DNA of 64,000 bases, taken from the NCBI RefSeq assembly GCF_001632775.1, contig NZ_CP015249.1, forward strand, positions 3,204,686 through 3,268,685, given 5' to 3'. Each line of letters starts with the position of its first letter. Position 1 is the first letter of the stretch. The notes beneath the pieces were generated by a model that was not told where the DNA came from, did not search any database, and worked only from the letters and a program-made list of their open reading frames with translations. The translations under genes and the position numbers were made by a program. Shown piece by piece: positions 29,177 to 61,095 of the stretch. Origin of the DNA: Dokdonella koreensis DS-123 (GTDB lineage Bacteria > Pseudomonadota > Gammaproteobacteria > Xanthomonadales > Rhodanobacteraceae).

Positions 29177-29627
29177 GCGTGTATCCCATCGATGCCAGCA
29201 CACTCCCCTGCACGGGGCCGTGGAGTCGTGCCGTCCAGCGGACGGCGGCATCAATGGCGCATCGGACGAAACCCTCTGCAGTGCGAAAACAGGCGCGCAC
29301 TATAGTCGGCCGGGCGCGCCGGGCAAAGAGGCATCGGTGCCGTGCGGCCATCGCCATTCAGGCTTCGACCCGGTTTCACGTCGGCATCTGCCTCCTGCCC
29401 GGGCACGGGTTTCGTTCGCTGCACTGCCAGCGCGCACCGCCCAGCCGGCGATGCCTCGTGCAGGTCGGTCACCGCCGCCCCTGCGACGTCACGCGCACGC
29501 CGGCCAGCGCGCGCGCTGCCGGGCGGCGATGCCCGGCGCGCGCATCCGCCCGATGGGCGCGCCGCGTTTGATCCCGGCTTCACGCCGGCTGCCGAGACTG
29601 CGGTCCTCTCCCCGAAGGAAGCCCGCG
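29177..29627. other. divergent intergenic region
   Basis: About 450 bases between the ABC-F gene (-) and the DJ-1/PfpI gene (+). No coding composition is seen in any frame. TATAGT on the minus strand (29301-29306) could be a -10 element for the ABC-F gene; the plus-strand promoter was not recognised. Confidence 0.4.
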
Positions 29628-37441: not shown

Positions 37442-37682
37442 GCCGTGCCTGCCGCCCGCTGCGGTGACGCAAGACCGGCTCCACCCGATGCGCTCACGCG
37501 TACTTCGCCTTGCTGGGAAAAGGGTTGCGCCCACCGGTCCGCGCAGGCAGCGCCATTCGACCGGCTCGCCAGGGGATACGCAAGAGGCCGGCCGAATCGG
37601 ACAGACGCGCTGCCTGCCCATCGGCAGCGCCGGAAAGAGCGCCGCCTGCCCGGCTTCCGGCGCCCCTGAAAACCCGGTCGCT

Positions 37683-37699
37683 GTAAGTCGAACGTAAGT
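37683..37699 (+). promoter_or_regulatory. direct-repeat operator upstream of the MipA-like gene
   Basis: GTAAGT occurs at 37683-37688 and again at 37694-37699, eleven bases from start to start, about one helical turn. Paired half-sites with this spacing are usual for OmpR/PhoB-type regulators. The site ends 42 bases before the ATG of the MipA-like gene, which is followed by an OmpR-type regulator and its kinase, so the regulator at 38592 is the natural candidate to bind here. Seen in sequence; binding is inferred. Confidence 0.5.
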
Positions 37700-37741
37700 G
37701 ACGCCCACGCACAGTGACGCTCCCTTTCGCGGTGTCTCGAC

Positions 37742-40871: not shown

Positions 40872-41155
40872 AACGGGCCTCCCGGCATCTGTCCGTGGCG
40901 CCAGCGACTCCGCCGTGCAATCCACACGGTCCGCGGCGCGCCGGAGCGGACCGCAACGAACCCGGCTCCGGCGAGCACGCGTCCCAGCGGGTATATCGCT
41001 AGGCACTGCGCCGGCGGCGGGCTAAGATCGCCGCGCGGAGCAAGCCGCACCCGGGTCCGCGGGCAGGGTCCAACCCACTTGCCTTTCCACACCTTCCAGA
41101 CCTTTGTGCAGCCGGCATTGCGGACCTTCGGCGATTCCTGCATGGAGGTTTCCCC

Positions 41156-42802
41156 GTGAACGCGCTTCCCGAGCACGCCCATATCGATCACCTGCGCAAG
41201 CAGGCCAAGGCGCTACTGCGCGCCTACCAGGCCGGCGATGCCGAGGCATTGCACCGCTTCCGCCAGGCCTTGCCGGCCGCGTACGGCACCAGCGATGCGC
41301 AGCTGGCCGCGATGCAGCTGCGCCTGCACGACGCGCAATCGTGCATCGCGCGCGAGTACGGCTTCCCAAGCTGGAACGAGCTGCGCGACTACGTGGCGTG
41401 GCAGCGCCTGCGTACGCAGGACCGTGCCGCCACCGTGCGGCACTGGCTGGGCCTGGTGTATGCCGGCGACGTCACCGGCGACCTGTTCGGCGCCCGGCCC
41501 AGGCTGGCCGCGCGCGTCCTGGCCGAGCAGCCGGACCTGGCCGACGGCGATGCATCCCTCGCCTGCGCCGTCGGCGACGAAGCCGCCGTACGTGCCGCGA
41601 TCGCAGCCGATCCCGGCTGGGTCCATCGCCCTGGCGGCCCCTTGAACCTGCCGCCACTGGTGGCGGTGACGCATTCGGCCCTGTTGCGCCTCGACGGTTT
41701 CGCCGAGCGCCTGCGCCGCTGCGCACGCCTGCTGCTGGAGGCCGGCGCGCCTCCCGACCAGTCCATCGGCAACCGCTGGCCGCCGCACTCGGTCGACCAG
41801 CCCGGTGACGACCGGCTCAGCGCCCTCTACGGCGCCGCCGGCCAGGCGCACGACCTGGCATTGACACGCCTGCTGCTGGAGCGCGGTGCCGATCCCAACG
41901 ACGGCGAATCGCTCTACCACGCCGTGCAAAGTCCTGCGTGCATACGCCTGTTGCTGGAGCACGGCGCCCGCCCGGCCGGCACCAACGCGCTGGCGCATGC
42001 CATCGTCCAGGCGAACCTGGCTTCCGTGCAGCTGCTGTTGGCGCACGGCGCCGATCCCAACGAGGTCACCGCCCAGGACACCACGCCGCTGATCGCCGCT
42101 CTGCGCGCGCGCTGCCCCGTCGCCGTGATCCAGGCCCTGCTCGACGCCGGTGCCGATGTCCACGCCGCCACGCCCGAGGGCCAGGGCACGTATGTCTACG
42201 CCCTGTCGCTGGGGCTGACCGATGTCGCGCAGGTGCTGGAGAACGCCGGTGCCGACGCGGCCCTGACCGACGAGGACGCCTTCGTCGCCGCCTGCGCGCG
42301 GGGCGACGAAGCCGACGCCCGTCGCCGGTTGGCGCGCCAGCCGGATCTGCTCGACCGGCTGGGACCCGAGCGGCTGGCCCGCCTGCCGGAGCTGGCGATG
42401 AACGGCTGCGACGCCGCCGTGCGGCTGATGGTGACGCTCGGCTGGCCGGTGGCCACGCGCGGCGGCGATGCCCCGTTCCGCGGCTCCGCGCTCAACTGGA
42501 CCGTGTTCCGCGGCAACGCGGCGCTCGCCGGTTTCCTGCTGGACCACGGCGCCCACTGGCACGAAGCGCACGGCTACGGCAGCGACGTGCTCGGCACGCT
42601 GTCCTGGGCCTCGTGCAACGAGCCCCACGGCGAAGGCGACTGGGTCGGCTGCGCCCGCGCCCTGGTCGCGCATGGCCTCGCGCCCGCGACGCGCCTGCCG
42701 GGCGCGCCCCAACAGGAACCACCGGAGTACGTGCTGATCGACGGACGCGAGATGACGTTCTCGGAGGATGTGACGGCGTTCCTGCTCCAACCCGCACCGT
42801 AG
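41156..42802 (+). CDS. large cytoplasmic ankyrin-repeat protein
   Basis: A 548-residue protein without a signal peptide. The first 90 residues hold a conserved helical motif ('[20 protein letters not shown]' and '[16 protein letters not shown]') that often precedes ankyrin repeats in bacterial proteins. Residues 120-480 contain many ankyrin units ('[12 protein letters not shown]', '[13 protein letters not shown]', '[13 protein letters not shown]'). The function is protein binding, partner unknown. GTG 41156 is chosen because GGAGG (41144-41148) lies at the right distance. It stands alone on its strand between the MipA-linked set and the IPTL-CTERM gene. Confidence 0.85.
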
Positions 42803-42877
42803 GACCGGTCGTCGCTCGATCGGATCGGGCCGCGTCGAATGCAGGGCCGGCGCACCGGGCACCGGCCCGGACGCACG

Positions 42878-43624
42878 TCAGTGCACGCGCCGCCACCACA
42901 GGCCGAGGCCCGCCAGCAACGCAGCCAGCACCGCCAGCGCCGCCTGCGAGAGCACCGGCACGGCAATCGCTTCCAGGACCAGCACGACCGTCTGCGACAC
43001 CGGTGCCGCCGGCGCGTAGACACCGCTGCCGGCCTGGCTGGCGGTGATCGCACACGCGCCCGGATAGAGCATGGTCACCGTGATGCCGGAGATCGTGCAC
43101 ACGTTCGACGGGCCCGCCGTGTAGGTCACCGGATTGCCCGAGGCGCCGCCGGTCGCGAGCGGATCAACGGCGAAGGTTCCTCCCGGAAAGAACGGCCGCT
43201 GCGCGACCGCCTGTACCGGGAACGTGATCGTCTGCGGCTGAAGATCGACGACCTCCAGCGTATACGCGCGCTCGCCGGTCAGCCCGCTGCTGTCGATCGC
43301 AATGGCCGTGAACGTGTAGATGCCCGGTACGGTCGGGATACCGACCACGGTCTGATGGTGGAAGACGAAACCGGGTGGCAGCGTGCCTGGAACAAAGACC
43401 CAGTGCGGTGGGACGCCGCCGATCGCCCTCAGTCCCTGGTTGTAGTGGACGCCCACAATGGCGACCGGCAGCGTCTCCGGAAGGATCTCGAGCGTCGGCG
43501 CGCCGACATCGGGCGCCTCGGGCGCGGCGTAGCGCGAAACCGGCGCCGCCCAGGCCAACGACAGCGAAAGGCACATGGCAGTGCCTGCAACGGCAGCCCA
43601 TCGCAGGAAATGACGTCGTTCCAC
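42878..43624 (-). CDS. exported putative-Ig protein with IPTL-CTERM tail
   Basis: A 248-residue exported protein. The N-terminus (MERRHFLRWAAVAGTAMCLS) is a signal with an RR pair, possibly Tat. Residues 45-130 form a putative Ig domain ('GTLPPGFVFHHQTVVGIPTVPGIYTFT' region). The C-terminus has VPVLSQAALAVLAALLAGLG followed by WWRR, which is the IPTL-CTERM sorting pattern: Pro-x-Leu-Ser, a membrane helix, then Arg. Such proteins are thought to be processed by a membrane sorting protease after export. No sorting enzyme gene is in the window. ATG 43624 starts the signal. Confidence 0.83.
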   Translation of the reverse strand: MERRHFLRWAAVAGTAMCLSLSLAWAAPVSRYAAPEAPDVGAPTLEILPETLPVAIVGVHYNQGLRAIGGVPPHWVFVPGTLPPGFVFHHQTVVGIPTVPGIYTFTAIAIDSSGLTGERAYTLEVVDLQPQTITFPVQAVAQRPFFPGGTFAVDPLATGGASGNPVTYTAGPSNVCTISGITVTMLYPGACAITASQAGSGVYAPAAPVSQTVVLVLEAIAVPVLSQAALAVLAALLAGLGLWWRRVH

Positions 43625-46065: not shown

Positions 46066-47292
46066 GCGGATTCATATGATCGATGCAACACACAGATAGC
46101 TGCGTAGGCAGCAGGGGTGTTGCAGATGAAGCGCAGGAAGAGGATCTATTACACCGACACCCAGAAGGCGATGATGTGGGATCGCTGGCAGCAGGGCGAG
46201 CCCCTGCACCAGATCGCGTCCCTGTTTGACCGGCACCACAGCTCAGTGCGGAACATCCTGGCCGAGCATGGCGGCATTCGTCCTCCGACAAGGCGAAGGT
46301 CCCCGAGGGTGCTGAGCCTGGCCGAGCGCGAGGAGATCTCCCGCGGCCTGGCGGCGGGACGATCGATCCGCATGATCGCCGCGTTGCTCGGGCGTGCGCC
46401 ATCCACGATCAGCCGCGAGATCGGTCGCAACGAAGGCTCTGAAGGCTATCGAGCCAGCCAGGCCGACCGGGCCGCTTGGGACCGGGCACGACGCCCCAAG
46501 CCCTGTAAGCTGTTGCTGCATCGAGCCTTGGCTGCTCTCGTGGCAGGGAAGATCCAGCGGCAGTGGTCACCCGAGCAGGTGGCAGGCTGGCTCAAGCGTA
46601 CCTATCCAGATGATGCGAGCCGTCAGGTGTCCCACGAGACCATCTATCGCACGCTCTACATCCAATCGCGCGGGGCTCTGAAACAGGAGTTGCTCGCCCA
46701 TCTGAGGCGCACGCGGGCGATGCGTCGCTCGCGACACCATACCCAGAAGACAGAGAGCCACGGCCGGATTGCCGACACCGTCTCAATCAGCGAACGGCCG
46801 GCCAATGCCGAAGATCGGGCCGTGCCGGGACACTGGGAAGGCGACCTGCTGTTCGGCGACCGGAACAGTCAGATCGCCACGCTGGTGGAGCGACAGACAC
46901 GCTATCTGATGCTGGTGAAAGTGGCAGGCAAGGACACCGAGACCGTGGTCAATGCACTGATCAAGAACGCACGTCGCCTGCCAAAGCAGCTGTACCGATC
47001 ACTGACCCGGGATCGGGGCAAGGAGATGGCGGCACACCGTCGCTTCACCTTGGCCACGGACATCCAAGTCTATTTCTGCGACCCGCACCATCCTTGGCAA
47101 CGCGGCACCAACGAGAACACCAACGGCCTACTACGGCAGTACTTCCCCAAAGGGATCAATCTGACCGACGTCTCGCAGGCGAAGCTGGATGCCGTGGCAC
47201 GCCAGCTCAACGAACGGCCACGCAAGACGCTTGACTACGAAACGCCAGCAGAGCGGTATCGGCAAACCGTTGCGTTGATCGGTTGAATCCAA
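46066..47292 (+). mobile_element. IS30-family insertion sequence, apparently intact
   Basis: Imperfect terminal inverted repeats of 22 bases lie at 46068-46089 and 47269-47290 (17 of 22 paired; both start GGATTCA read inward, with GATC and GCAAC shared further in). One full-length transposase gene fills the element. The flanks suggest insertion into the middle of a palindromic repeat with GACC duplicated. IS30-family elements usually duplicate 2-3 bases, so the exact ends could differ by one or two bases from those given. Confidence 0.8.
46126..47286 (+). CDS. IS30-family transposase
   Basis: A 386-residue transposase. The N-terminal helix-turn-helix pair ('LAEREEISRGLAAGRSIRMI', then 'GRAPSTISREIGRN') is typical of IS30. 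The DDE core shows D in GHWEGDLLFG, D in LTRDRGKEM and E in GTNENTNGLLRQYFPKG, with the conserved 'RYLMLVKV' strand. ATG 46126 has GCAGGGG upstream; GTG 46117 is an in-frame alternative. The reading frame is undamaged, so the element may be active. Confidence 0.9.
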   Translation: MKRRKRIYYTDTQKAMMWDRWQQGEPLHQIASLFDRHHSSVRNILAEHGGIRPPTRRRSPRVLSLAEREEISRGLAAGRSIRMIAALLGRAPSTISREIGRNEGSEGYRASQADRAAWDRARRPKPCKLLLHRALAALVAGKIQRQWSPEQVAGWLKRTYPDDASRQVSHETIYRTLYIQSRGALKQELLAHLRRTRAMRRSRHHTQKTESHGRIADTVSISERPANAEDRAVPGHWEGDLLFGDRNSQIATLVERQTRYLMLVKVAGKDTETVVNALIKNARRLPKQLYRSLTRDRGKEMAAHRRFTLATDIQVYFCDPHHPWQRGTNENTNGLLRQYFPKGINLTDVSQAKLDAVARQLNERPRKTLDYETPAERYRQTVALIG

Positions 47293-47308: not shown

Positions 47309-47386
47309 TGTGTGTCTGCCATAAGCCCAAGTAACCCACTAAGCTTGCTGAACTGTACTCATACTTTTTTAAGGAAAGGGGGGGGC

Positions 47387-50300
47387 ATGTTTCATTTGAC
47401 AGCAAGAGTGGCGTGGCACGACTCACAGTGGAACGGCGCCGTGTGCCGTCGACCATCTTGCAATTCCTTTTGCGTTGCACTCGATCGTATTCGCGAGGAG
47501 CGCGACGACTCCAAAGAGGATTCAATCGCAGGCAAGCGCTGGAACACGCTCGAGTCCGACAATCTGCCCGCATGCAAGGCCGAGTCGGGCGCTTTCATGA
47601 ACGATGAGGAGTGGTCGCGGCGCTTCGTTCACCCGTACGCGGGCATCAAGAAGGCCGACGACACACACGGTCACCTGAAGCCGACACTTGTGAAAATCCC
47701 GTCATACGCCACGTTCGTCGTGCCTTTCGCGTGGATGCTCAAGAGCGAGCAGGAGGCGATCGACGGGAGGCTGCCAACGCCGCTTCCCCTCGACGAGAAA
47801 GCTCCGTTCAGCAGCCCTTGGGTCTTTGGACGCGAGCGTCAGGAGGCGATCCTCAAGCTGTTCGCGAGTCGCCTCACGGCAGAGCGCTCGCTGGTCTTCT
47901 TCTACTGCAAGGAGGGGCAGCCCCTCGGCGACACCATCTCGCGGCTCGTGATAGGCGTCGGACGGATCGCGAATGTCGCGCAGCCGAAGGGCTACGACGT
48001 CTCGAAGAAGAAGCCCACGCACCTCATGTGGGACCTACTCATCCGGCACACGATCCGACCCGAGGGCGAGGACGGGTTCCTGCTCCCGTATCACGACTAC
48101 TTGGAGCCGACCGGCGACGCATCCGAAGACGCGCGGCGCCAGCAGCTCCTTCGTGAGATCGCGGTACCCGCCGACCCAGCGCACGTTCGCGTCTTCTCCT
48201 ACGCCGCCGAGCTCGCGCCCGCCGACATCGCTCTCTCGACCTTAGTCCGCTGCCTTGAGTCGGTGCGGAAGATCCGCGAGCACGGCATCGCCAAGGGCCC
48301 GTGGGAGCGCCGCGAGGAGTGGCTCAACCAGCAGATCGCCCAAGCGTGGCAGGACCGAGGCCCGTTCCCAGGGCTCGGTCCGGTGCTCGAAGCGCTCGGC
48401 ATGCGGCTCGGAACGGCGCTCGCGCTGGAGATGCGCTCGTCGGGCACGGTGAAGACTGACGCCGACCCGTGGCCAACGGTGGACTCGATCCTTCGCGGGA
48501 AGCAGAGGCCTCCGCAGCCTGCCTACGCCAAGGATCTGAAGGCGGTCCGCGAGACGTGGACGGACCTCCCCGACGAGCGCCGTGCCCTGCTCAAGCTCCT
48601 CTCACGCTTCGCGCTCACCACGGAGCAGGCGCTTCGCTGGTTCGATCTGAAGGAGCGCGCAAAGGGCACGGCAGCGAAGGTGACCGACGAGGAGATCCTC
48701 GCTAACCCGTACCGCATGAGCGAGGTCGACCTCGGTGACTGGAGCGACTCTCCAGTCTCCGTTGGCGTCGTCGATCGTGGGCTGCTTCCCGACGCGACCA
48801 TCGCCGCGAAGCATCCGGTGCCGGCGCCGTCGAAGGTGGGCTCGCCGAACGACGCGCGGCGCCTGCGAGCCGCGCTGGTCGCGGTGCTGCGTAAAGCGTC
48901 GGAGAACGGTGACGCGCTCCTCAGCATGCACGAGGCGCTTCAGCGCGTCGGCTCCCTCGACCTCGCGCATCCGTGCGTCATCGGCACCGATTGGCCTAGC
49001 ACGAACCGTTCGACGATGGCGGGCGTCGTCGAACTGATCGACATCCTTGCGTCGGAGGGAGCGCCGACGGCCGCGCTCCAGCTCACCGAGCTGAAGGGCC
49101 GTGAGGACCGCCTTCGCTCCGTACTCGGCAAGCGCGCGGCGAAGGCTGCCGCGCCCATCAAGGCCGACTGGCGGAGGCTACTCGTCACGGCCATCTCCGA
49201 GGCGGGCGGCAAGTTCGACAAGACGAACGAGAGCCACCGGGAGGCCATCGAGGAGCAGGCCGTCGCGCTCGAGCGACTCCTGTCGCGTCGTCTCAGTGTT
49301 CTCGTCGGGCGCGCAGGCACGGGCAAGACGTCGGTCATGGGCGCGCTCATGCTCTCGGAAGCGCTCACGAAGGCCGGCATCCTGTTGCTAGCGCCGACCG
49401 GCAAGGCGCGCGTCCGCCTCGGCAAGGCGACGAACGCGCAGGCGATGACAGTCGCCCAGTTCCTCCACCGCCTCGGTAGGTACGACGGCTCTCGCCAGCG
49501 GCCGAAGTTCGACGGCAAGGACAAGTACCGCAAGGAGAAGACCGTCGTCATCGACGAGTGCTCGATGCTCACGATGGACGATCTGGTCGCCGTCCTCGAA
49601 GCACTCGACCTCGCGCACGTCCAGCGAGTCATCCTAGTCGGCGATCCGAACCAGCTTCCGCCCATCGGCGTCGGGCGTCCGTTCGCCGACCTCGTATCGT
49701 ACCTCGAAACCACGGATGTGAAGGGCGACGACGGCTCGCCGCTCGGCAACGCACTTGCCCGGCTCTCTGTCGAGGTCCGCGCAGCAGCCGCGGCGTCCTC
49801 GACGACCTCGGACGCGCTCCGGCTCGCCTCGTGGTTCACGCGCGAGCAGCAGCCCGTCGACGCCGACCGCGTGCTCAGCGACCTCGAGCTGGGCGAGAAG
49901 TTTAACGACCTCGAGATTGCGCTGTGGAAGACGCCCGACGACCTGCGCGCACAGCTCCTTGCTGCTTTCCAGCGGCACCTCGGGCTGAGCGGCCCGCACG
50001 ATATCGCGGGCTTCGACAAGGCGCTCGGTCTTGACGACAAGGGCTGGGTCCCGTTCGACGCGCCGGAAGGCTCCGAACGCTGGCAGATCTTGTCGCCGGT
50101 CCGCATGCATCCACACGGGGTCCACGACCTTAACCGCTGGGTGCAGCGCCAGTTCCGCGCGAAGGAGCTGGAAGCGGCGGCGACCGCCTGGGGCGTGAGC
50201 CTCGGCGACGAGACCATCGTCGCCAAGGACAAGGTGATCCAGACCACGAACCAGAAGCGCAAGGCGTACAACTGGGTCGAGCGTGCGGTGGATGAGCACT

Positions 50301-51076
50301 ACATCGCGAACGGCGAGGTCGCCTTGATGTCGAAGGTGAAGACCATGCTGAAGGGCGTGTTCGCCGGTCGGCCCAACCTGACCTTCGACTACTGGCCCAA
50401 CCAGTTCTCCGATGGCTACGCGCCCCTCGAGCTGGCGTATGCGCTCACCGTTCACAAGTCGCAGGGCAGCGAGTTCAAGAAGGTCTTCGTTATCCTGCCG
50501 AAGAACAGCAGGCTGCTCTCGCGCGAGCTCGTCTATACCGCGCTCACGCGCTCGCGTGAGCAGCTCGTGCTCCTCATCGAGGGCAACGACCCGACGGTTC
50601 TCTTCGACCTCACCCGGCCGGAGCGCTCGGAGACCGCGCGCCGCAACACGAATATCTTCCTGAGCGTTATCCGCGCCACCGACGACTCGGTGCCGTTCGC
50701 CGAGCACCTGATCCACCGGACCGAGAAGGGGCACCTAGTGCGCAGCAAGTCGGAGCTAGTGATCGCGAACATGCTGTTCCAGCTCGGCATCCCTTACGAG
50801 TACGAGCGCGTCCTCGACGGGACTACCGCAGCAGGCCGCCTGCGCCCCGACTTCTCCTTCGTCACGGCCGATGGTGACCTGCTCGTCTGGGAGCACCTGG
50901 GGATGCTCAGCCGCCCTTATTACAAGCGTGGCTGGGACTGGAAGCGCGCTTGGTACCAGAGCAACGGTTTCGTCGAGGGCAAAACGCTATTCACGTCAAC
51001 GGAGGAAGACGGCAGGGGTCTCGACTCTGGAGAGTTGAAGAAGACTGCTCTCAAAATCAAGTCTTTGATCGATTGA
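47387..51076 (+). CDS. RecD-like SF1 helicase fused to a PD-(D/E)XK-like nuclease
   Basis: A 1,229-residue protein. Residues 1-75 have a Cys-containing segment ('ARVAWHDSQWNGAVC'). The helicase core has Walker A GRAGTGKTS (about 641-649), Walker B VVIDECSML (about 718), motif III GDPNQLPP (about 752), and motifs V/VI in ALTVHKSQGSEF and YTALTRSREQL (about 1049), as in RecD/TraA-type 5'-3' helicases. After this come SKSELVIANML (about 1120), RLRPDFSFV (about 1151) and WEHLGM (about 1167). The E, PD and E-x spacing fits a PD-(D/E)XK nuclease in which the usual Lys is replaced. ATG 47387 follows AAGGAAAGGGG. Codon choice (TCG, CTC and AAG rich) differs from the backbone. A DNA-targeting defence role is inferred. 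Confidence 0.85.
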   Translation: MFHLTARVAWHDSQWNGAVCRRPSCNSFCVALDRIREERDDSKEDSIAGKRWNTLESDNLPACKAESGAFMNDEEWSRRFVHPYAGIKKADDTHGHLKPTLVKIPSYATFVVPFAWMLKSEQEAIDGRLPTPLPLDEKAPFSSPWVFGRERQEAILKLFASRLTAERSLVFFYCKEGQPLGDTISRLVIGVGRIANVAQPKGYDVSKKKPTHLMWDLLIRHTIRPEGEDGFLLPYHDYLEPTGDASEDARRQQLLREIAVPADPAHVRVFSYAAELAPADIALSTLVRCLESVRKIREHGIAKGPWERREEWLNQQIAQAWQDRGPFPGLGPVLEALGMRLGTALALEMRSSGTVKTDADPWPTVDSILRGKQRPPQPAYAKDLKAVRETWTDLPDERRALLKLLSRFALTTEQALRWFDLKERAKGTAAKVTDEEILANPYRMSEVDLGDWSDSPVSVGVVDRGLLPDATIAAKHPVPAPSKVGSPNDARRLRAALVAVLRKASENGDALLSMHEALQRVGSLDLAHPCVIGTDWPSTNRSTMAGVVELIDILASEGAPTAALQLTELKGREDRLRSVLGKRAAKAAAPIKADWRRLLVTAISEAGGKFDKTNESHREAIEEQAVALERLLSRRLSVLVGRAGTGKTSVMGALMLSEALTKAGILLLAPTGKARVRLGKATNAQAMTVAQFLHRLGRYDGSRQRPKFDGKDKYRKEKTVVIDECSMLTMDDLVAVLEALDLAHVQRVILVGDPNQLPPIGVGRPFADLVSYLETTDVKGDDGSPLGNALARLSVEVRAAAAASSTTSDALRLASWFTREQQPVDADRVLSDLELGEKFNDLEIALWKTPDDLRAQLLAAFQRHLGLSGPHDIAGFDKALGLDDKGWVPFDAPEGSERWQILSPVRMHPHGVHDLNRWVQRQFRAKELEAAATAWGVSLGDETIVAKDKVIQTTNQKRKAYNWVERAVDEHYIANGEVALMSKVKTMLKGVFAGRPNLTFDYWPNQFSDGYAPLELAYALTVHKSQGSEFKKVFVILPKNSRLLSRELVYTALTRSREQLVLLIEGNDPTVLFDLTRPERSETARRNTNIFLSVIRATDDSVPFAEHLIHRTEKGHLVRSKSELVIANMLFQLGIPYEYERVLDGTTAAGRLRPDFSFVTADGDLLVWEHLGMLSRPYYKRGWDWKRAWYQSNGFVEGKTLFTSTEEDGRGLDSGELKKTALKIKSLID

Positions 51077-51175: not shown

Positions 51176-51796
51176 CTACCCTTCGGTCTGCTCGGCGATC
51201 TCCAGCGCGTCGTCAACCTCGATGCCGAGGTATCGAACGGTGCTTTCGAGCTTGGTGTGGCCCAAGAGGAGCTGCAACGCACGAAGATTCCTCGTCCGCC
51301 GGTAGATGAGCGACGCCTTGGTCCGCCGCATCGTGTGCGTTCCGTACGATCCCCCTTCGAGCCCAATGGCGTCAATCCAGCCATGAACGATTCGGGCGTA
51401 CTGTCGGGTCGAGAGATGTGGCGATGCGTGCAGCCTCGTCGGGAACAGGAAGTCGCTGGCGCGGGGGCCGGCGGCGGCTATCCACGCCGTCAGCGATTCC
51501 CGCGTCAGCTGCGTGATCTCGAACTGCACCGGCCGACCGGTCTTCTGCTGGAGCACGACAGCTCGCGAACCAATGGCCCCTGCATGTGCGACGTCGGCGA
51601 CCCGAAGCTTCACGAGATCACATGCCCTGAGCTTGGAGTCGATCGCCAGATTGAAAAGCGCGAGGTCGCGAGTCCTCCTGCCAAGCTGTAGTCGCACTCG
51701 GATAGCCCAGATGTCCCGGAGCTTGAGGGGTGCTTTCTAACCGACGAGCTTTCCTTTGTTCCATGGGGCCGGTCGGACCTGGACTGCGGCGTTCAT
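51176..51796 (-). pseudogene. small tyrosine recombinase with an amber codon at position 20
   Basis: A 206-codon tyrosine-recombinase gene of a widespread short type with no N-terminal arm-binding domain. Reading from ATG 51796 (GAGG upstream) gives MNAAVQVRPAPWNKGKLVG, then TAG at 51737-51739, then KAPLKLRDIWAIRV in the same frame. A single C-to-T change from CAG would explain it, and Gln is what I would expect there. Downstream the catalytic set is intact: Arg in SKLRACDLVKL, HTMRR, LLGHTKLES and Tyr in TVRYLG. Restarting at GTG 51697 would lose the conserved N-terminus. It is therefore inactive, or expressed only by suppression. Confidence 0.75.
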
Positions 51797-51882: not shown

Positions 51883-52665
51883 TCATGTGCTGCTTATTGG
51901 ACTGCTTCGTTTAGCATGAGGCTGTGCGCCAAGGTGTCGTGACCGCGTGTTTGGATCGCATACTTCAAACAGGTCGTTATGCCACTTCACCGACGTCAGA
52001 TCCATGTCTCTGGGTGGAGGGAGTCCGCCTAGATGGAGTTCGTTATCCCAGATGATGCCGATCTCTCTCGCGGGACCCTGTCGATATATGGCCGCTAATT
52101 GTGGCGCCCCGCCAGTTTGTGGGTCTTGCCCACTTTTCAGTGCGTCGCAAAATGCTGAGAAAACACTACGACTAGTTCGACCTGATACATCCTGGCTTAC
52201 CCATTTCCTAAGTTCGCTAAATGCTATGGCTCTACCGGATCCATATGCACAGATAATATCTGAATGCTCAGTTGGTATCGGGTGATTGCGGACGCGCCAT
52301 GAGCGATCTTCGTATTCATGTGCAGTGACAACAAATTGGGTCGCCATACCTTCCCCAACCCGGCGTGCAAAAACAAATGCTGTGCCCTCTAGTGATCCGA
52401 TGGGGAAGCTGTCAGACAACTCATGCAGACGTTCTTCAAGCTGACCGTCACTGAGCGCCCCTCCACTTAAACCAACTAATAGGTTTTGCCCAAAGGTGAC
52501 ATCGCCGGCGAATGCCAATATCGCTGCGTCGCGTGTTCGAACCGAAAGCTTCCTCCCTCTGTCCCATTGGGTTGCTGACGGCCAAGAGAAGCGACTGTCG
52601 GTTGCAATATAGAGGGACGATGGAGCCCTCGAGTCTAGGCCGCACCAACATATCAATGTGGTCAC
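51883..52665 (-). CDS. proteasome-like (Ntn-hydrolase fold) protein, orphan
   Basis: A 260-residue soluble protein. The start MTTLICWCGLDSRAPSSLYI, followed by ATDSRFSW and 'RDAAILAFAGDVTFGQNLL', resembles proteasome beta-type Ntn hydrolases, where a strand with a Thr near the N-terminus is followed by 'DSR' and a 'GD' turn. Thr2 or Thr3 would be the nucleophile after Met removal, but this is a structural guess. GTG 52665 is the first possible start after an in-frame stop at 52681-52683; no clear ribosome site is present. It is visibly richer in A/T than the chromosome. It lies between the dead recombinase and a decayed IS3 element, so it may itself be horizontally acquired. Confidence 0.55.
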   Translation of the reverse strand: MTTLICWCGLDSRAPSSLYIATDSRFSWPSATQWDRGRKLSVRTRDAAILAFAGDVTFGQNLLVGLSGGALSDGQLEERLHELSDSFPIGSLEGTAFVFARRVGEGMATQFVVTAHEYEDRSWRVRNHPIPTEHSDIICAYGSGRAIAFSELRKWVSQDVSGRTSRSVFSAFCDALKSGQDPQTGGAPQLAAIYRQGPAREIGIIWDNELHLGGLPPPRDMDLTSVKWHNDLFEVCDPNTRSRHLGAQPHAKRSSPISST

Positions 52666-52861: not shown

Positions 52862-54165
52862 TGAACCGCCCCGGGATTCCTGGAGGCTCCAACCTTTGAG
52901 AGGATGGAGTCATGAGCAAGCCAGTGAAGTACTCACCGGAAGTCCGGGAACGAGCGGTTCGGATGGTGCTCGAGCACCAGGACGAGCACGGTTCGCAGTG
53001 GGCGGCAATCGCGTCGATTGCCGGGAAGATCGGTTGCACGGCCGAGACGTTGCGCTTGTGGGTGCGGCGGGCCGAGCGTGACTAGGTGTTGCGCCCGGGG
53101 CTGACGACGGACGAGCGGGCGCGGATGAAGGTGCTGGAGCGCGAGGTCCGGGAGCTGCGGCAGGCCAACGAGATCCTGCGCAAGGCATCGGCGTATTTCG
53201 CCCAGGCGGAGCTCGACCGCCGCTTCAAGCCATGACCGGGTTCGTATCGGTCCACCGGCACGCCTACGGAGTCGAGCCGATCTGCTGGGTGCTGGAGATC
53301 GCTCTGTCGTCCTCCTACGGCCATGCTGCACGGGAGGCCGATCCGGACGCCCGTCCGGATCACTGGTGGCGGGAGCGGGCGCTGGAAGCGGAAGTACGCC
53401 GGGTGTGGGACGAGAACGGGCAGGTGTATGGGGCGAAGAAGGTCTGGAAGTAGTTGCTGCGGGAAGGCTGGCAGGTGGCGCGGTGCACGGTGGAACGACT
53501 GATACGTCGGCTGGGCCTGCGTGGCGTGATCTGGGGCAAGGGCGTGAAGACCACGGTGGGCGACCCGGTACGGCCGTGCCCGCTGGATCGGGTCAACCGA
53601 CAGTTCCATGCTGACCGGCCGAACGCGCTGTGGGTCAGTGACTTCACGTATGTCTCGACCTGGCAGGGCATGGTGTACGTGGCCTTCGTGATCGAAGTGT
53701 ACGCACGCCGGATCGTGGGCTGGAAGGCGTCCAGTTCGATGACGACGGACTTCGTGCTCGACGCCCTGGAACAGGCTCTGCACGCCCGGCAGCGGGATAG
53801 CGAACTGATCAATCACTCCGACAGGGGGCGCAGTACGTGAGCCTCCGCTACAGCGAACGCCTGGCCAAGGCCGCGGGCGTCCGTCGGTGAGAAGTGTGGG
53901 CGACAGCTACGACAACGCGCTGGCCGAAACGATCAACAGGCTGTACAAGGCCGAGGTGTTCCATCGCAAATCGTGGCGCAACCGCGAGCAGATAGGAACT
54001 GGTCACGCTGGACCGGTTGCACTGGTACAACCACAAGCGATTGCTGGAGTCGATCGGGTACATCCCCCAGCGGAAGCCGAAGCGGCTTATTATCGGCAAC
54101 AAGCCGGTGAGGCCAAGGTGGCCTGACTCAAACCAAACGGCCTCCAAGAAAACCGGGGCGGTTCA
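52862..54165 (+). mobile_element. decayed IS3-family insertion sequence
   Basis: Terminal inverted repeats: TGAACCGCCCCGG begins the left end (26 bases, 52862-52887), and the complement occurs at 54140-54165, with 23 of 26 bases paired. The element is 1,304 bases, normal for IS3. It starts TG and ends CA as usual. No matching 3-4-base target duplication is visible at the flanks (GCC on the left, ACC on the right). Its genes carry several stops and frameshifts, so it cannot move by itself. Confidence 0.85.
52912..54126 (+). pseudogene. IS3-family transposase orfA/orfB, multiply broken
   Basis: OrfA reads [20 protein letters not shown] from 52912, with TAG at 53083-53085 (codon 58). It resumes with the leucine-zipper region '[20 protein letters not shown]' and stops near 53235. 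OrfB follows in another frame with TAG at 53451-53453 after GAKKVWK, then the DDE core part 'NALWVSDFTYVSTWQGMVYVAF'. A frameshift near 53825-53835 precedes 'YSERLAKAAGV', and another near 53885 precedes 'SVGDSYDNALAETINRLYK'. A last one near 53995 precedes 'LHWYNHKRLLESIGYIP'. At least five lesions show long decay. Confidence 0.85.
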
Positions 54166-54333
54166 ACCTGCCGAGCGCTTTCAAGCGGGTTCGGTAATTG
54201 GAGATTTCGGATCCGACCTACTGTCTGAGCTACCCCGCCCAACACTAGCCGCAGAGCGGAATCTAGGGGAGAGAGGCTGGGGTATGCTAACGCCAGTCTG
54301 GGGGCAGCAATTGTCATTTTGGAGAGCGGGCAC

Positions 54334-56349
54334 ATGCGACTGAGTAGGGCGAGGGTCACCAATTACCGCGGCATCATCGACACTGGCTGGTTTGATGTCG
54401 AGAAGAACAAGACCATCATGGTCGGCCCCAACGAGGCAGGTAAGACGGCCGTTCTGCAAGCCCTTCAGCAAATCAACCCGCCGCCGGATGTGCCGAAGTT
54501 CGATGCGCTGCGCGACTACCCTCGCTCCAAGTACAACGATATAACGACGGGGCGGGTTGACCCTAAAACAGTTACTGTGGTGGAGGTCGAGTTTGAACTC
54601 GATGACGCAGACCGCGCGGCGATTCCCCCGACCATGCACAGTGTGCGGTACGCCTTCAGTAGGAGGTTAGACAACTCCGCGCGGCACAACCTGCTTGATG
54701 CCCCTCCGCTGCCTACCTTCGGCAGCATCACCAAAGACTTGACTCGTCTCTGTGCCCACATTGACCCGCGCGCGGAAGCTAAGACGCCGGGTGGCCCGTC
54801 GCCGAGTGCAGAACTGGCCTCGATCACCAACGAATGGACTGCGACGACAGCTATCGAAGGCGAGCGAGCAACTGCCCTGAAGTCGTGGCTAGATAAGTCT
54901 TTACCTTTGGTTGACGAAGCCAACGACACTGAGGAGAAGCGGTTCGACAGCCTTGTAGCGGCGGCAGCAGCTTACGTCGATCGAGCGACAGCTCTCAAAG
55001 TACTCGATGGTCGGAAGCCAGTCTTCGTGCTGTTCAACAACTATTTCCGTGTAAGACCATTAATTCAACTCGATCATCTTGCTCAGAGGTTGTCCAACAG
55101 TGTTCTCGACGACGATCAGTACGACTACGGCAATGTCTGTCTACTAAAGTTGCTTGGCTTTACCGCACAGGAGCTTTCTGACCTTGGAAGAACGTCACCG
55201 CCTGCAGCGAATAATCCCACTGCCCTTCAGACCTACCGCGATCAGCTCGATAAGCGCACCTATCAGCTTAATGCCGCGAGCGTACAGCTAACGAATGAGA
55301 TCCGCTCGGTCTGGCGCCCGCGGGAAGGTCGCGCAGAAGCAGACAAATTACGCATTCAGGCGGATGGACAGTATCTCAAGGTGGTAGTCGAGGACGAGCT
55401 TGGCGTTGACATCGAATTACATCAGCGCTCGGAAGGATTCCAATGGCTGGTGTCATTCTTTGTGGTGTTCTTCGCTGAAGCCGCCGGTAAGCACAAGAAC
55501 GCCATTCTGTTACTCGACGAGCCAGGCTTGTCTCTGCACGGACTCAAACAGCGTGAGTTCCGGTCAACCCTTAGCCGGCTATCCGAGAGCAATCAGACAA
55601 TCTATACCACTCATTCCCCTTTCCTCGTTGGTCCAGATGAATTGAACTTGGTCCGGGTTGTTGAGATGCTTGATCGTATCGTTGGCACCAAGGTGCATAC
55701 GACCGTCACTTCAGGGGATCCGGCAGCGCTCCTGCCGCTACAAGAGGCGCTGGGATACGATTTGGCCCAGAGTTTATTTACCCAAGAGCGCAACCTTGTG
55801 CTTGAAGGGTTGACGGACTATTGGTACGTCGATGCGACTGCGGCTCTGCTTCGCGCGGCGGACGTGGTTAACTTGAACGAGAAGGTTGCTTTGGTTCCAG
55901 CCGCAAGTGCGGGCAAGGTGGTGTATTACGCCACCATCCTCTATGCGCAAAACTTCAAGGTTGCAGCACTGCTTGACTCTGATGTTGCTGGCGATCAAGC
56001 AGCACAGCAAGAAACACTGGTTCACACACTGGGGAACAAATGCATCCTGCGAACCAAGGACGCATATTCCGGCCCCGTTGCCAAGCCAGAAATCGAGGAC
56101 TTGCTGCGAGAGACGCTTGTCAACATCGCTAAGGAGTCCTTGGCAATCGATGTGACTGTCGATGCTGCGGCCCAGCCCGCTCGCCCGATCATCGATCTAC
56201 TCGAGTCCACTGGTAGCGGCTTCTCGAAGTACAAGCTAGCAAAGGCGTACATCCGCTGGGCCCGCGATCACTCTGCCAGCGATCTAACGGCGACCGAACG
56301 AGACCAGTTCAAGGTGTTGATCGAAAAGATCAACAAGGCCTTGAAATAG
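54334..56349 (+). CDS. OLD-family ATPase/TOPRIM nuclease
   Basis: A 671-residue protein. An N-terminal ABC-type ATPase half has Walker A GPNEAGKT (31-38). After a long coiled insertion it is completed by Walker B ILLLDEPG (about 388-395) and 'YTTHSPFLV'. The C-terminal TOPRIM domain has the Glu in LVLEGLTDYWYV (about 491) and the DxD pair in LLDSDVAGD (about 546). This is the OLD architecture, as in phage P2 Old and GajA, which nick or cut DNA. ATG 54334 has GGAGAGCGGG upstream; TTG 54319 is an unlikely alternative. Base composition is more A/T-rich than the backbone, pointing to transfer. No dedicated helicase gene is adjacent. Confidence 0.88.
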   Translation: MRLSRARVTNYRGIIDTGWFDVEKNKTIMVGPNEAGKTAVLQALQQINPPPDVPKFDALRDYPRSKYNDITTGRVDPKTVTVVEVEFELDDADRAAIPPTMHSVRYAFSRRLDNSARHNLLDAPPLPTFGSITKDLTRLCAHIDPRAEAKTPGGPSPSAELASITNEWTATTAIEGERATALKSWLDKSLPLVDEANDTEEKRFDSLVAAAAAYVDRATALKVLDGRKPVFVLFNNYFRVRPLIQLDHLAQRLSNSVLDDDQYDYGNVCLLKLLGFTAQELSDLGRTSPPAANNPTALQTYRDQLDKRTYQLNAASVQLTNEIRSVWRPREGRAEADKLRIQADGQYLKVVVEDELGVDIELHQRSEGFQWLVSFFVVFFAEAAGKHKNAILLLDEPGLSLHGLKQREFRSTLSRLSESNQTIYTTHSPFLVGPDELNLVRVVEMLDRIVGTKVHTTVTSGDPAALLPLQEALGYDLAQSLFTQERNLVLEGLTDYWYVDATAALLRAADVVNLNEKVALVPAASAGKVVYYATILYAQNFKVAALLDSDVAGDQAAQQETLVHTLGNKCILRTKDAYSGPVAKPEIEDLLRETLVNIAKESLAIDVTVDAAAQPARPIIDLLESTGSGFSKYKLAKAYIRWARDHSASDLTATERDQFKVLIEKINKALK

Positions 56350-58010: not shown

Positions 58011-58577
58011 ATGGCAATGAGTACGACAGTAGGCAATGACCGGCTCTGGCGCGGCCTGCGCTGGGTGGTCTGGGGCGGCGCGGCGATGCTCTTGCTGCTG
58101 CCGCTGGTCGCGATGCAGTTCACCGCGGACGTGCGCTGGTCGCCGTTCGACTTCGCCCTGATGGGCCTGATGCTGGCCCTGGTCGGCGGCGCCTACGAGC
58201 TGGCCGTGCGCGTGGCGCGCAGCCACGTCTATGTCGTCGCGTTCGGCGTCGCGGTGCTGACGGCGTTCCTGATGACCTGGGCCAACCTGGCCGTCGGCAT
58301 CATCGGGGAGCCGGACAACCCGGCCAACCTGCTGTTCTTCGGCGTGATCGCGGTGGCGGTCATCGGCGCGGTGCTGGCGCGGCTGCAATCGCCCGGCATG
58401 GCGCGGGCGATGATCGCGACGGCGATCGCCCAGGCCGCGACGTGCGTGGCAGCCCTGGTCCTCGACGGCGTCTACGTGTTCGTGCTGACGGGGGTCTTCG
58501 TCGTGCTGTGGCTGATTGCGGCGCAGCTGTTCCGCACCGCGGCGCGACGGCCGGCGGCCGTCATGCCCCCACGCTGA
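58011..58577 (+). CDS. small integral membrane protein, unknown function
   Basis: A 188-residue protein with five to six hydrophobic segments ('GGAAMLLLLPLVAMQF', 'FALMGLMLALVGGAYEL', 'VVAFGVAVLTAFLMTWANLAVG', 'LLFFGVIAVAVIGAVLA' and 'GVYVFVLTGVFVVLWLIAAQLF'). ATG 58011 has AGGAGG 8 bases upstream; ATG 58017 is in frame and possible. The family is not recognised with certainty. It converges with the nuclease-like gene at 58609. Confidence 0.75.
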   Translation: MAMSTTVGNDRLWRGLRWVVWGGAAMLLLLPLVAMQFTADVRWSPFDFALMGLMLALVGGAYELAVRVARSHVYVVAFGVAVLTAFLMTWANLAVGIIGEPDNPANLLFFGVIAVAVIGAVLARLQSPGMARAMIATAIAQAATCVAALVLDGVYVFVLTGVFVVLWLIAAQLFRTAARRPAAVMPPR

Positions 58578-58608
58578 CGGAACGCGCGGACACACGCCGG
58601 CGGGCCGG

Positions 58609-59487
58609 TCACGGCATGCGGTCCGGCTCCCCCGCGATGCCGGGTGAAGGGACGTCGCCGGCCAGCCGGCGGCGGCGCTCCAGGCGCCAGGTGGGCCAGT
58701 AGAAACGCTGCTTGTCCTTGGCGGCGGCCAGGCGCTCGCCGTGCTCGGCCTCGCTCAGTTCGCCGGTGCCGAACTTCACTACCCAGAAGCCGTCCGGGTC
58801 GTGCGGGGCGACGGCGAGCGGCAGCCAGCCGCAGCCGCGATGGGTCTCCGGGATCAGGTGCTCCAGCCCGAAGCGGGCGCACTCGCCACGCACGGCATCG
58901 AGCCGTTCGCGAATCGTTTCCTCGCGCTGCAGGCCCGGCGGCGATTGCAGCACCAGCTTGATGTCCACCTGCGACACGTCGGGCGCGGCATGCTGCAGGA
59001 TGCCGCAGAGGCGGGCCACCTTGGACGCGAGCTGCGCGTCGGTGAAGCCGCTGGTGCACTTGGCCTCGACCAGGATCAGCTGCGTGCCGCCGTCGGGCCG
59101 GACGTAGGCGAGCAGCAGGTCGATGTCTTCCTGGCTGTTCTCGATCAGGAAACGCGGCGGATCGGCCCGGGCCTCGTCGCCGGGATCGGCGGACCGGAAC
59201 GGCGCGAGCCGCGCGTTGTGCCGGGCGGCGCCGTCGGGCGTGCCACCGGCCAGGGCGGCGTACAGCCAGTTGAGGTGGTAGTCCATCGCCAGGAAGGCGG
59301 ACCGCACGGCGGCCGGCTGTGGCGGGTCCACGCCGGCCGCGCGCGCGGCCGCGCGCAGGAAGGCGACGCTGGGCTGGAAGCGGCCGAGTGCCTGGCGCAC
59401 CACCCAGTACCGTTCTTTCGCGTTGAAACAACGCAGCCGGTCGATGACGGACCACGGTCCGCCCTCGACGTTGTGTGTCTCCACCAT
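58609..59487 (-). CDS. PD-(D/E)XK nuclease-like protein
   Basis: A 292-residue soluble protein. The centre has 'EDIDLLLAYVRPDGG' (D121, D123) followed by 'LILVEAKCTSG' with E141 and K143, the D..ExK core of restriction-endonuclease-fold enzymes. The N-terminal 110 residues are helical. No helicase or methylase gene is beside it, so it is not an ordinary restriction gene. Function is unknown: nuclease, repair or DNA-binding. ATG 59487 has AGGGGGG upstream. Codon use is like the backbone. Confidence 0.6.
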   Translation of the reverse strand: MVETHNVEGGPWSVIDRLRCFNAKERYWVVRQALGRFQPSVAFLRAAARAAGVDPPQPAAVRSAFLAMDYHLNWLYAALAGGTPDGAARHNARLAPFRSADPGDEARADPPRFLIENSQEDIDLLLAYVRPDGGTQLILVEAKCTSGFTDAQLASKVARLCGILQHAAPDVSQVDIKLVLQSPPGLQREETIRERLDAVRGECARFGLEHLIPETHRGCGWLPLAVAPHDPDGFWVVKFGTGELSEAEHGERLAAAKDKQRFYWPTWRLERRRRLAGDVPSPGIAGEPDRMP

Positions 59488-59841
59488 GAGACCCCCCTGC
59501 GAAAAACGCCCCCTGATCTCGGCGTGCGGACAGCGTACGCCACCGCGGGCCGATCACCAAACGCCGGCGCACGGTCCGGCTGCCCGGCACGCCCGCCCGG
59601 CACGGCAGCCGAGCGCCAAGCCGGGCGCCCATGGCCCGGCCTGGCCGTGGACGGCGCGGCCCAGGCCTCGCCGTCTTAGATGACATTTCTTTTTTCATCA
59701 TCCACTTGCATGCATCGGCCACGGAAAGGCCATGCGCCGAACAGGCAGTGTGGTAGACGCTAAACAATAGTCGGTCGCCAGCCGTGGGCTGGTCCTGCCG
59801 CAAGCGGCGGCGACACTTCTTCAGATCCGGAGCGAGGGGCA
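59488..59841. other. divergent intergenic region
   Basis: 354 bases between the nuclease-like gene (-) and the exported protein (+). An A/T-rich patch at 59677-59705 (CATTTCTTTTTTCATCATCC) stands out and could be part of a promoter for the plus-strand gene. GATGA and TCATC at its edges can pair weakly. Confidence 0.4.
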
Positions 59842-61095
59842 ATGAGAGCAGTCATCGTCGGTGTTTCACTGGTCGCCACGGCGGGCATGGCAACGGGCAT
59901 CCACGCCGAGACGCCGGCGGGGGCGGCAACGCTGGTGGTGCCGGCAGGCGTGAGCGCCGCGGCACAGGCGGGCACCACGGCGACGGCCTCGCTGGTGATC
60001 GGCAACAGCGGCGGCACCGCGCTGGACTGGAACCTGCGCGAGGCGCCGCGCCAGTCGCACTTCCTGGCCGGGTCGGTACCGCACCTGCCGCTGCCGGCGC
60101 CGGTGGGCGTGGGACCGGTGCCGGCCTATGCGCTGAACAACACGGGCGTGGCCACCACCTACATCGCCGAGGACGTGCTGGACCCGGCCGGCCTGACCAC
60201 GATCGGCCCGGCGCCGACCGGCACCTGGGTCAGCGGCACCTTCATCGGCAACGACTTCGCGCACCACTACATGCTGGAGTCGCACTGGCAGGTACCTACC
60301 TATGCGCTGATCGCGATGGATACCGCCACCGGCCAGAACACGCCGGTGACCACCTTCCCGCTGACCGAGGGCCAGTGGGCCGGCATCACCTGGGACGCCA
60401 CCACCAGCACGCTCTACGGCGTGGCCTGCGCGGAGGCGATCTGTACGCTCTACACGCTGGACCCGTCCACCGGCACGCACACGCGGGTCGGCCAGGTCGT
60501 CGGCGCGGAAGACGGCACCGGCCAGACCAGCCTGCTGGACCTCACGGTGGACTCGGCCGGGCGCCTGTACGGCATCAACTTCTTCACGCGCAGCCTGTAC
60601 GCGATCGACAAGACCACCGGCGCGGCGCAGACCATCGGCGCGCTGGGCGTGACCGAGACGCCGATGTACATCCAGAGCATCGACTTCGACAAGCGCAACG
60701 ACACGCTGTACTGGTTCGCCTTCGTCAGCACCGGCGGCCCCAACGTGCAGGGCCGCATCTACACGATCGACCCCAGCACCGGCGTGGCCACGCAGCAGGC
60801 ACTGATTCCCGGCCCGGCCGAGCAGTTCGCGGCGGCGATCGCCACGGTCGGCCCGTGCGCGGCGCCCTCGACGGTGCCTTGGCTGCGCACCGAGGCGATC
60901 AGCGGCAGCACGGCACCGGGCGGCACGTCCGCGGTGACGGTCACGCTGGACGCCGCCGGCCTCGCGCCCGGCACCTACAGCACCGACGTGTGCGTCTACA
61001 GCAACGACGCCAGCCAGGGCCTGCGCGCCCGCGTGCCGGTGACCTTCACGGTCACGCCGGACACGCTGTTCGCGAACGGCTTCGAGGCACCGTAG
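59842..61095 (+). CDS. exported propeller-like protein with 'LFANGFE' tail
   Basis: A 417-residue exported protein. A signal peptide ends near IHAETP. An Ig-like N-terminal part precedes a propeller-like middle ('ITWDATTSTLYGVAC', 'AIDKTTGAAQTIGALG', 'TIDPSTGVATQQALI'). The final Ig-like domain ('VCVYSNDASQGLRARVPVTFTV') leads to the C-terminus DTLFANGFEAP. The last 200 residues align with the C-terminus of the protein at 19132-22209, so the two are paralogues. ATG 59842 has GAGGGG upstream. Function is unknown; the tail is discussed as a finding. Confidence 0.85.
   Translation: MRAVIVGVSLVATAGMATGIHAETPAGAATLVVPAGVSAAAQAGTTATASLVIGNSGGTALDWNLREAPRQSHFLAGSVPHLPLPAPVGVGPVPAYALNNTGVATTYIAEDVLDPAGLTTIGPAPTGTWVSGTFIGNDFAHHYMLESHWQVPTYALIAMDTATGQNTPVTTFPLTEGQWAGITWDATTSTLYGVACAEAICTLYTLDPSTGTHTRVGQVVGAEDGTGQTSLLDLTVDSAGRLYGINFFTRSLYAIDKTTGAAQTIGALGVTETPMYIQSIDFDKRNDTLYWFAFVSTGGPNVQGRIYTIDPSTGVATQQALIPGPAEQFAAAIATVGPCAAPSTVPWLRTEAISGSTAPGGTSAVTVTLDAAGLAPGTYSTDVCVYSNDASQGLRARVPVTFTVTPDTLFANGFEAP

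Follow-up and report, generated by a model that had tools for sequence, protein, structure and literature searches.

A PDC-S68-family helicase-nuclease of Dokdonella koreensis as a candidate stand-alone phage-defence enzyme

The gene at 47387-51076 (+) of a 64-kb stretch of the Dokdonella koreensis DS-123 chromosome (contig NZ_CP015249.1; hereafter the window, to which all coordinates refer) encodes a protein of 1229 residues whose sequence identifies it as a member of PDC-S68, a family already catalogued as a computational 'phage defence candidate'. We consider it rather probable that this protein, whose gene has moved by horizontal transfer, defends against phages on its own as an enzyme that targets DNA. 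Its domains follow the order of a Cys/His-bearing N-terminus, about 400 residues without known fold, a RecD-like superfamily 1 (SF1) helicase and a predicted PD-(D/E)XK-type C-terminal nuclease. The first-pass annotation had put the gene forward as a candidate single-gene helicase-nuclease defence system; the domains and the genomic context support this, and the gene does not represent a new family.

The gene and its domains

The open frame spans 47312-51076 (+), counted from a GTG at 47312. Because homologues from several phyla start at the codon equivalent to ATG 47387 or beside it, and a AAGGAAAGG-like stretch lies immediately 5' of that ATG, the start was placed there, as in the first-pass annotation. 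The ratio of nonsynonymous to synonymous substitution rates (dN/dS, about 0.09 overall) was 0.08-0.10 against seven full-length relatives and stayed within 0.05-0.14 when four segments were taken one by one, showing that the gene is under purifying selection; together with the intact frame, this ruled out a dead gene. The PADLOC-DB profile PDC-S68 (PDLC05065) matched residues 1-1224 of 1229 with 1475.7 bits, covering model positions 5-1218 of 1221. Pfam at curated cut-offs detected only helicase/ATPase domains in the whole protein, and no NCBIfam model matched at its own cut-off, RecD2 being the best.

PDC-S68 is not named in the full-text literature searched, a corpus that leaves bioRxiv and most subscription papers outside, and within the same bounds no title or abstract opening on helicase-nuclease defence or on embedding studies describes the family. 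The terms RecD, PDC, PDDEXK and helicase are all absent from the text of the DefensePredictor paper (PMC13092281). The same candidate label has been applied to S. thermophilus genes, according to PMC11514479.

Conservation was assessed in alignments of 20, 23 or 24 sequences, counts that include the window protein, from a small homologue sample derived in part from one collection scan. Homologues that are truncated, broken or incomplete (L008, L010, L027, L055, L057) were excluded, as were L036, L037, L041 and L045-L048, which are fragments. The near-identical L003, L007 and L012 were kept out of the 20-sequence alignment A1 and of A5-A7; among the diverse sets, L062-L065 entered only A5 and A6, and L021 was left out of A6, though its motifs agree.

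The motor comprises a RecD2-like segment with the first helicase domain (residues 485-771; 48839-49699, +; aligned with the RecD2 structure 3e1s; Pfam AAA_30, 4.9e-31) and helicase motifs V-VI (residues 1016-1063; 50432-50575, +; UvrD_C_2, 1.1e-14). In 20 sequences the Walker A motif GRAGTGKT (residues 641-648; 49307-49330, +) was invariant at G641, A643, G644, G646 and K647, and the Walker B/motif II DECS (residues 723-726; 49553-49564, +) at D723, E724 and S726; the key residues of GDPNQLPPIG, VHKSQGSEF and YTALTR were likewise invariant. The presence of Walker A, Walker B and motifs III, V and VI, and the alignment with 3e1s, identify an SF1B RecD-like helicase, in agreement with the RecD/TraA-type core annotated earlier. 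The best solved relatives were RecD2 (3e1s, whole-sequence E 7.4e-24) and the RecD subunit of RecBCD, by analogy with which a 5' to 3' polarity would be expected. A housekeeping RecD2 was ruled out by a score of 206.5 bits against the cut-off of 500 for the RecD2 equivalog (TIGR01448), and by the patchy distribution described below.

The C-terminal domain (residues 1110-1229; 50714-51073, +) carries the SKSELVIANML, RLRPDFSFV and WEHLGM stretches from which a PD-(D/E)XK nuclease with a replaced Lys had been proposed. Among 23 aligned sequences S1120, E1123, P1154-D1155-F1156, E1169, H1170 and G1172 were invariant, so that acidic residues occupy in all of them the three PD-(D/E)XK positions on the helix (E1123, the proposed catalytic residue of SKSE, residues 1120-1123; 50744-50755, +), in the PD motif (D1155, a proposed metal ligand in PDF, residues 1154-1156; 50846-50854, +) and in the E-x-K strand (E1169 of WEHLG, residues 1168-1172; 50888-50902, +). 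The Lys expected two residues after the strand Glu is absent throughout, position 1171 (Leu in the window protein) being L, W, C or V in 23/23. K1186 (50942-50944, +) is kept in 22 sequences (Arg in L060), as is K1121 (Ile in L059). In an AlphaFold2 model of residues 1070-1229 (m6d62f8e37e61; mean predicted local distance difference test, pLDDT, 78.5) the elements are, in model numbering, a helix at 52-63, strands at 87-90 and 96-102, a helix at 108-123 and a strand at 132-136. The first helix holds E1123, D1155 comes immediately ahead of a strand and E1169 sits in the next strand; K1186 (model residue 117) lies in the helix that follows, after which comes another strand. On this prediction the domain would have the alpha-beta-beta-beta-alpha-beta core of PD-(D/E)XK nucleases.

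Fold comparison with Foldseek supported this prediction weakly in the PDB and better in a library of viral models. Many of the 50 PDB matches listed are enzymes that we take to be of the PD-(D/E)XK class (DrdV, arenavirus cap-snatching endonucleases, TnsA, PvuRts1I). In the viral library 7 of 520 matches reached E 1e-3 or better (best 3.1e-6): one restriction enzyme, one homing endonuclease and five proteins that are either unnamed or uncharacterised. Proteins of the endonuclease I, DUF2726 and DUF559 types appeared lower down. In a weak profile alignment with T7 endonuclease I (E 0.73-1), the S..E, PDF and E-x-K-G residues of that enzyme, which are catalytic, fell on S1120..E1123, P1154-F1156 and E1169-x-L1171-G1172. 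The PADLOC profile PDC-S69 was matched by 20 of the 23 members, and HEAT_CxxC_PDDEXK by 11. E1123, D1155 and E1169 would serve as metal ligands, and K1186 is the likeliest substitute for the canonical Lys. Some cap-snatching endonucleases are known to carry their Lys on the following helix, and the active site would therefore be unusual yet not unprecedented.

The N-terminal module (residues 1-80; 47387-47626, +) contains the conserved residues H3, R7, W10-H11-D12, W15, G17, C20, P23, N26, C29, E44 and C63. In 24 aligned sequences, some with as little as 25% identity in this part of the protein, H3, R7, W10, G17, P23, N26 and E44 were invariant, H11, C20 and C63 were each kept in 23 and C29 in 22, in line with the Cys-bearing segment noted in the first-pass annotation. 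A homologue on a Vibrio plasmid (L023, 9995-13612) has lost H11, C20, C29 and C63 together and retains the acidic residues of the nuclease; L059 has lost only C29. The near-invariance of these four residues and their joint loss in L023 suggest a Cys-Cys-Cys-His (CCCH) metal site. At residues 11-37 and 47-68 the pLDDT of the AlphaFold2 model stays under 50, too low a confidence to place the Cys and His residues. No Pfam match fell in residues 1-80 when the whole protein was scanned, a PDB profile search of the N-terminal segment gave a chance-level match only (best E 0.15), and at E 0.01 residues 1-80 of the window protein matched no PADLOC profile besides PDC-S68; the first 80 residues of one of the 24 members also matched the PADLOC profile LmuB, at 0.0097. 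A mis-called start as the source of this Cys-rich N-terminus was ruled out by its conservation even in full-length relatives that share only 28% identity overall.

Residues 81-485 (47627-48841, +) form a conserved region without known relative. In the window sequence no Pfam match was obtained at E 0.1; across 20 members the best was ABC_tran_CTD, in one member at 8.7e-05, and a PDB profile search gave no credible match (best E 0.24). Within this region a strand-loop-strand at residues 156-198 (SLVFFYCKEG...LVIGVGRIANV; 47852-47980, +; model strands at 169-174 and 187-197) weakly resembles the FYHS...GIVGIA.V core of EVE/PUA domains. The resemblance was spotted by eye in the alignment, so that the P value of 0.0021 obtained by hhalign against a profile of 27 EVE segments (probability 13%, score 24.6, only 36 columns) should not be read as the outcome of blind testing. 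This profile drew on 6 of 30 loci of one set and 21 of 26 of another, L208 being dropped for a stop in its translation. Column-shuffled EVE profiles reached at best 20.7 in 330 trials (30 at first; the further 300 had a maximum of 19.7), the reversed profile scored 12.2, and when the protein was divided into 16 tiled windows, scores above 19 came only from the two that include residues 156-198. An earlier test with 11 close EVE sequences had given a P value of 0.0093 and a probability of 4%. A longer alignment was obtained only by forcing a lowered threshold; global mode gave a lower score and a P value of 0.016, and Pfam EVE (PF01878) did not match anywhere in the protein at E 1. The similarity may be taken as a lead and not as an identification, homology being uncertain. 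EVE domains occur in modification-dependent restriction, according to PMC7641849, in the text of which the term 'RecD' does not appear.

Spread and genomic surroundings

A scan of one genome collection returned 23 pattern matches, ten of which encode relatives, at nine loci. Seven full-length relatives, with 84-92% protein identity and 78-88.5% DNA identity, came from a 'Deltaproteobacteria' metagenome-assembled genome (MAG), Burkholderia, Massilia, Mycobacterium, Rhodanobacteraceae, Myxococcota and a contig of a viral collection. Identities of this order across phyla point to recent transfer, and the relatives of up to 92% identity in different phyla suggest wide travel and a function without lineage-specific partners. 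Frequencies were low: at E 1e-60 or better, counting the centre genomes and some matches that are fragments, 4 of 398 genomes in the same phylum, 4/233 in the family, 3/296 in the phylum of Mycobacterium and 8/188 in that of the L009 MAG contained the gene. The same-phylum search also gave a match in the control genome of Methanocaldococcus jannaschii. A phylum search with PDLC05066 returned the same three places as the same-phylum search plus its own centre, and no new member.

Near-full-length members were met on eight plasmid records. Viral contigs gave one close relative, and among the best 80 matches listed in a further search of them there were at least four more full-length ones; of those 80 loci, L062-L065 were the sole ones used. 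A phage-borne gene was rejected on the few matches found, only 2 of the 53 records of a phage collection holding most of the query; human faeces were the source of both, and the one examined is marked UNVERIFIED. Some copies are decaying: L055:9968-12574 is shortened, aligning to residue 857, and L027:10327-13721 is annotated as two open reading frames (ORFs).

At homologous loci, 39 hand-picked neighbour proteins from 16 loci were compared with PADLOC at E 1e-10, and 25 of them matched (7/10, 7/10, 7/10 and 4/9 by batch, the tenth protein of the last batch being a truncated PDC-S68 copy). Another PADLOC-matching gene lay within 10 kb at 11 of the 16 loci; this and the patchy distribution give no sign that the homologues sit mainly at conserved housekeeping positions. 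In L005 the PDC-S68 gene begins 51 bp past a mad6-mad7-mad8-like run, which by the length of its mad8-like protein is a long MADS variant, and homologues of all three mad ORFs (blastp E 1e-10 or better) lie in the same order just upstream in L008 and L012. Other neighbours were BrxH/HmaA-like with a methyltransferase (L003), SspB (L004), DrmD-like (L053, L063), type I restriction-modification (RM; L062, L064), type IIG (L011), a CBASS cyclase with a SAVED effector (L056), PDC-S06 with MkoC (L007), and a type III methyltransferase with NsnB (L061). Four of seven plasmid loci examined, from the eight records, have an annotated gene of a type often met in defence systems: a NACHT protein (L020), a type ISP RM (L022), a DNA methyltransferase with helicases (L024) and a type I RM (L025); L021, L023 and L027 show no obvious annotation of this type. 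As to the mad runs themselves, the mad8-like protein of L005:43-9949 has 1820 residues, of which the PADLOC mad8 profile covers only about the last 380, and the homologues of mad6, mad7 and mad8 in L008:1-9948 and L012:3-9968 measure 943-945, 560 and 1815-1819 residues.

Around the window gene, the island with recombinase, insertion sequences and OLD nuclease described in the first-pass annotation was recovered. Directly upstream lies an IS30-family transposase (46117-47286, +; NF033563, 297 bits), and downstream follow a tyrosine recombinase/integrase fragment of 173 residues (51176-51697, -; PF00589, 7.8e-17), a transposase remnant with an integrase core, rve (53232-53840, +; PF00665, 3.2e-18 on 53454-53840), and an OLD-like AAA/TOPRIM protein (54319-56349, +; PADLOC Old, 9.2e-24; G+C content, GC, 55%), which is a companion more foreign than the gene itself and possibly a separate defence gene. 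In a sibling genome without the gene (L161), the flanks equivalent to 41012-43336 and 58040-61088 are collinear and about 8.6 kb apart, with different DNA of 65-74% GC between them, and the island, at about 43-58 kb, is therefore a variable stretch. The codon use claimed as foreign to the chromosome proved only marginal: it is low and still within the chromosomal range, two of 18 reference genes chosen by a filter for high GC at third codon positions being lower, and the gene has 65.5% GC. Of six genes tested, a 260-residue ORF at 51883-52665 (-) has the most atypical codon use and 52.5% GC; its start looks Ntn-hydrolase-like by eye, and at E 1 it was matched by nothing in Pfam, NCBIfam or PADLOC. 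Outside the island, PADLOC matched a kinase (34589-37708, -; PD-T4-6/mad6-like) and an ATPase (27569-29251, -; mad3-like), which are probably ordinary chromosomal paralogues.

Proposed mechanism and competing explanations

From these comparisons we infer the DNA feature recognised, the polarity, the substrate and the role in phage defence. The N-terminal half, with its putative metal-binding motif and region without known fold, would recognise a feature of invading DNA, which might be a DNA end, an intermediate of replication or recombination, or a modified base. After loading, the RecD-like SF1B motor would translocate 5' to 3' while the PD-(D/E)XK domain tethered to it would cut unwound or branched DNA, E1123, D1155 and E1169 holding metal ions and K1186 probably replacing the usual Lys. 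Precedents for triggers include phage single-stranded DNA-binding protein (SSB) variation for Nhi, DNA ends for Shedu and Gabija, and modified bases for type IV systems, according to PMC12904381. Modified bases may be slightly favoured by the EVE lead. A more specific version has the RecD-like motor, which feeds a PD-(D/E)XK nuclease with a migrated Lys, controlled by a CCCH module together with an EVE/PUA-like reader, so that the enzyme senses modification or ends; it is speculative and on present evidence rather improbable. If true, one protein would act as a type IV-like restriction machine, with an architecture that did not turn up in the literature and searches covered, which spreads between phyla beside modification-based defences and perhaps catches phages that evade them by DNA modification. 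PDC-S68, for which the literature searched gave no functional description, gains from this analysis an anatomy open to testing: a probable metal site, a region that is a candidate reader, a RecD-like motor, and a nuclease in which the missing Lys has a likely substitute.

Several results weigh against a DNA-cutting defence enzyme. In the nuclease model the first core strand is formed of two-residue pieces only; none of 256 PDB Foldseek matches reached E 1e-3 (best 0.02), and those listed include ribosomal and actin-binding proteins; and Pfam gave no strong or widely shared match to the nuclease segment (best DUF1122, 0.0012, in 3 of 23 members). Lacking the canonical catalytic Lys, the domain might merely bind DNA. 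The model of residues 1-485 had no meaningful match in a PDB fold search (best E 0.82). Among ten long window proteins outside the island, taken as a control, two matched PADLOC, and the non-blind neighbour counts are indicative only, as choice by hand favours long ORFs and some matches are generic (kinase, SNF2 helicase). In L006, L009, L054, L058 and L059, none of the one or two proteins scanned per locus matched PADLOC.

The alternative that survives best, which we hold to be possible and on balance doubtful, is an abortive-infection effector, in which infection would be sensed (for instance through phage SSB), an auto-inhibited nuclease released and the infected cell die. Its precedent is Hna, according to PMC13381803 a broadly distributed anti-phage 3'-5' single-stranded DNA exonuclease whose auto-inhibited dimer is activated by phage SSB, leading to abortive infection. 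No partner gene was common to the loci, in searches of which none was aimed at antitoxins. Hna, with its SF2 helicase, offers only an analogy.

The neighbourhoods raise an unlikely alternative, that the protein is an accessory subunit: an optional effector of MADS, BREX/Hma, DISARM or type I RM that needs their marks or partners. The mad runs upstream in L005, L008 and L012 agree with it, as do several other methyltransferase-based neighbours. However, partners vary among close copies, from IS30 in the window to SspB-like, BrxH/HmaA-like with a methyltransferase, and PDC-S06 in L004, L003 and L007, and no methyltransferase was identified among the scanned ORFs beside the window gene. An all-against-all blastp (E 1e-10) of 216 neighbour ORFs from 21 loci revealed no family at more than four loci, which favours a stand-alone gene.

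Quite unlikely is a RecD2-like helicase-nuclease for DNA repair or recombination, borne by mobile elements and without anti-phage role. RecD2 and RecD as best solved relatives and the eight plasmid records fit this explanation; the RecD2 score far below its cut-off, the rare and patchy distribution and the abundance of defence genes among the scanned neighbours argue against it. A protein that is only a helicase, its C-terminal domain being a remnant that binds DNA without catalytic activity, as the loss of the canonical Lys in 23/23 might imply, is very unlikely given the invariant acidic residues, the next-helix Lys in 22/23 and a domain dN/dS of 0.06-0.14, like that of the rest of the protein.

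Relation to known systems

An autonomous DNA-targeting defence enzyme, as favoured here, shares parts with several described proteins. The closest counterpart is PDC-S68 itself (PADLOC-DB 2.0.0 candidate family, PDLC05064-05066), to which the match is whole-length and from which no difference was found. RecD2 and RecD, as SF1B helicases, have the helicase core and motifs in common with the window protein, which differs from them in 485 N-terminal residues without RecD2 match, an added C-terminal nuclease and a score far below that of the equivalog. T7 endonuclease I and the PD-(D/E)XK resolvases share the S..E, PDF and E-x-[K/L]-G motifs (E 0.73); unlike them, the window protein has its Lys position replaced and the domain fused to a helicase. 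With EVE/PUA modified-base readers (PF01878), the likeness is confined to the short strand-loop-strand at residues 156-198, which in the window sequence has no Pfam match and aligns over 36 columns only, with a low hhalign probability.

In Hna the helicase motifs are of the SF2 type and N-terminal, whereas the window helicase is SF1B and central; there is no Hna profile among the 25 PADLOC families listed for the protein, and no direct comparison with Hna was made. The two are alike in combining ATPase and DNA nuclease sites, which in Hna belong to an anti-phage system (PMC13381803), and Hna offers a model for possible regulation. The likeness to Nhi-type one-protein defences invoked in the first-pass annotation stands in part: the Nhi profile matches only helicase segments, weakly (E 0.0013) and not over the full length, but both proteins unite a helicase and a nuclease in one chain and may work alike.

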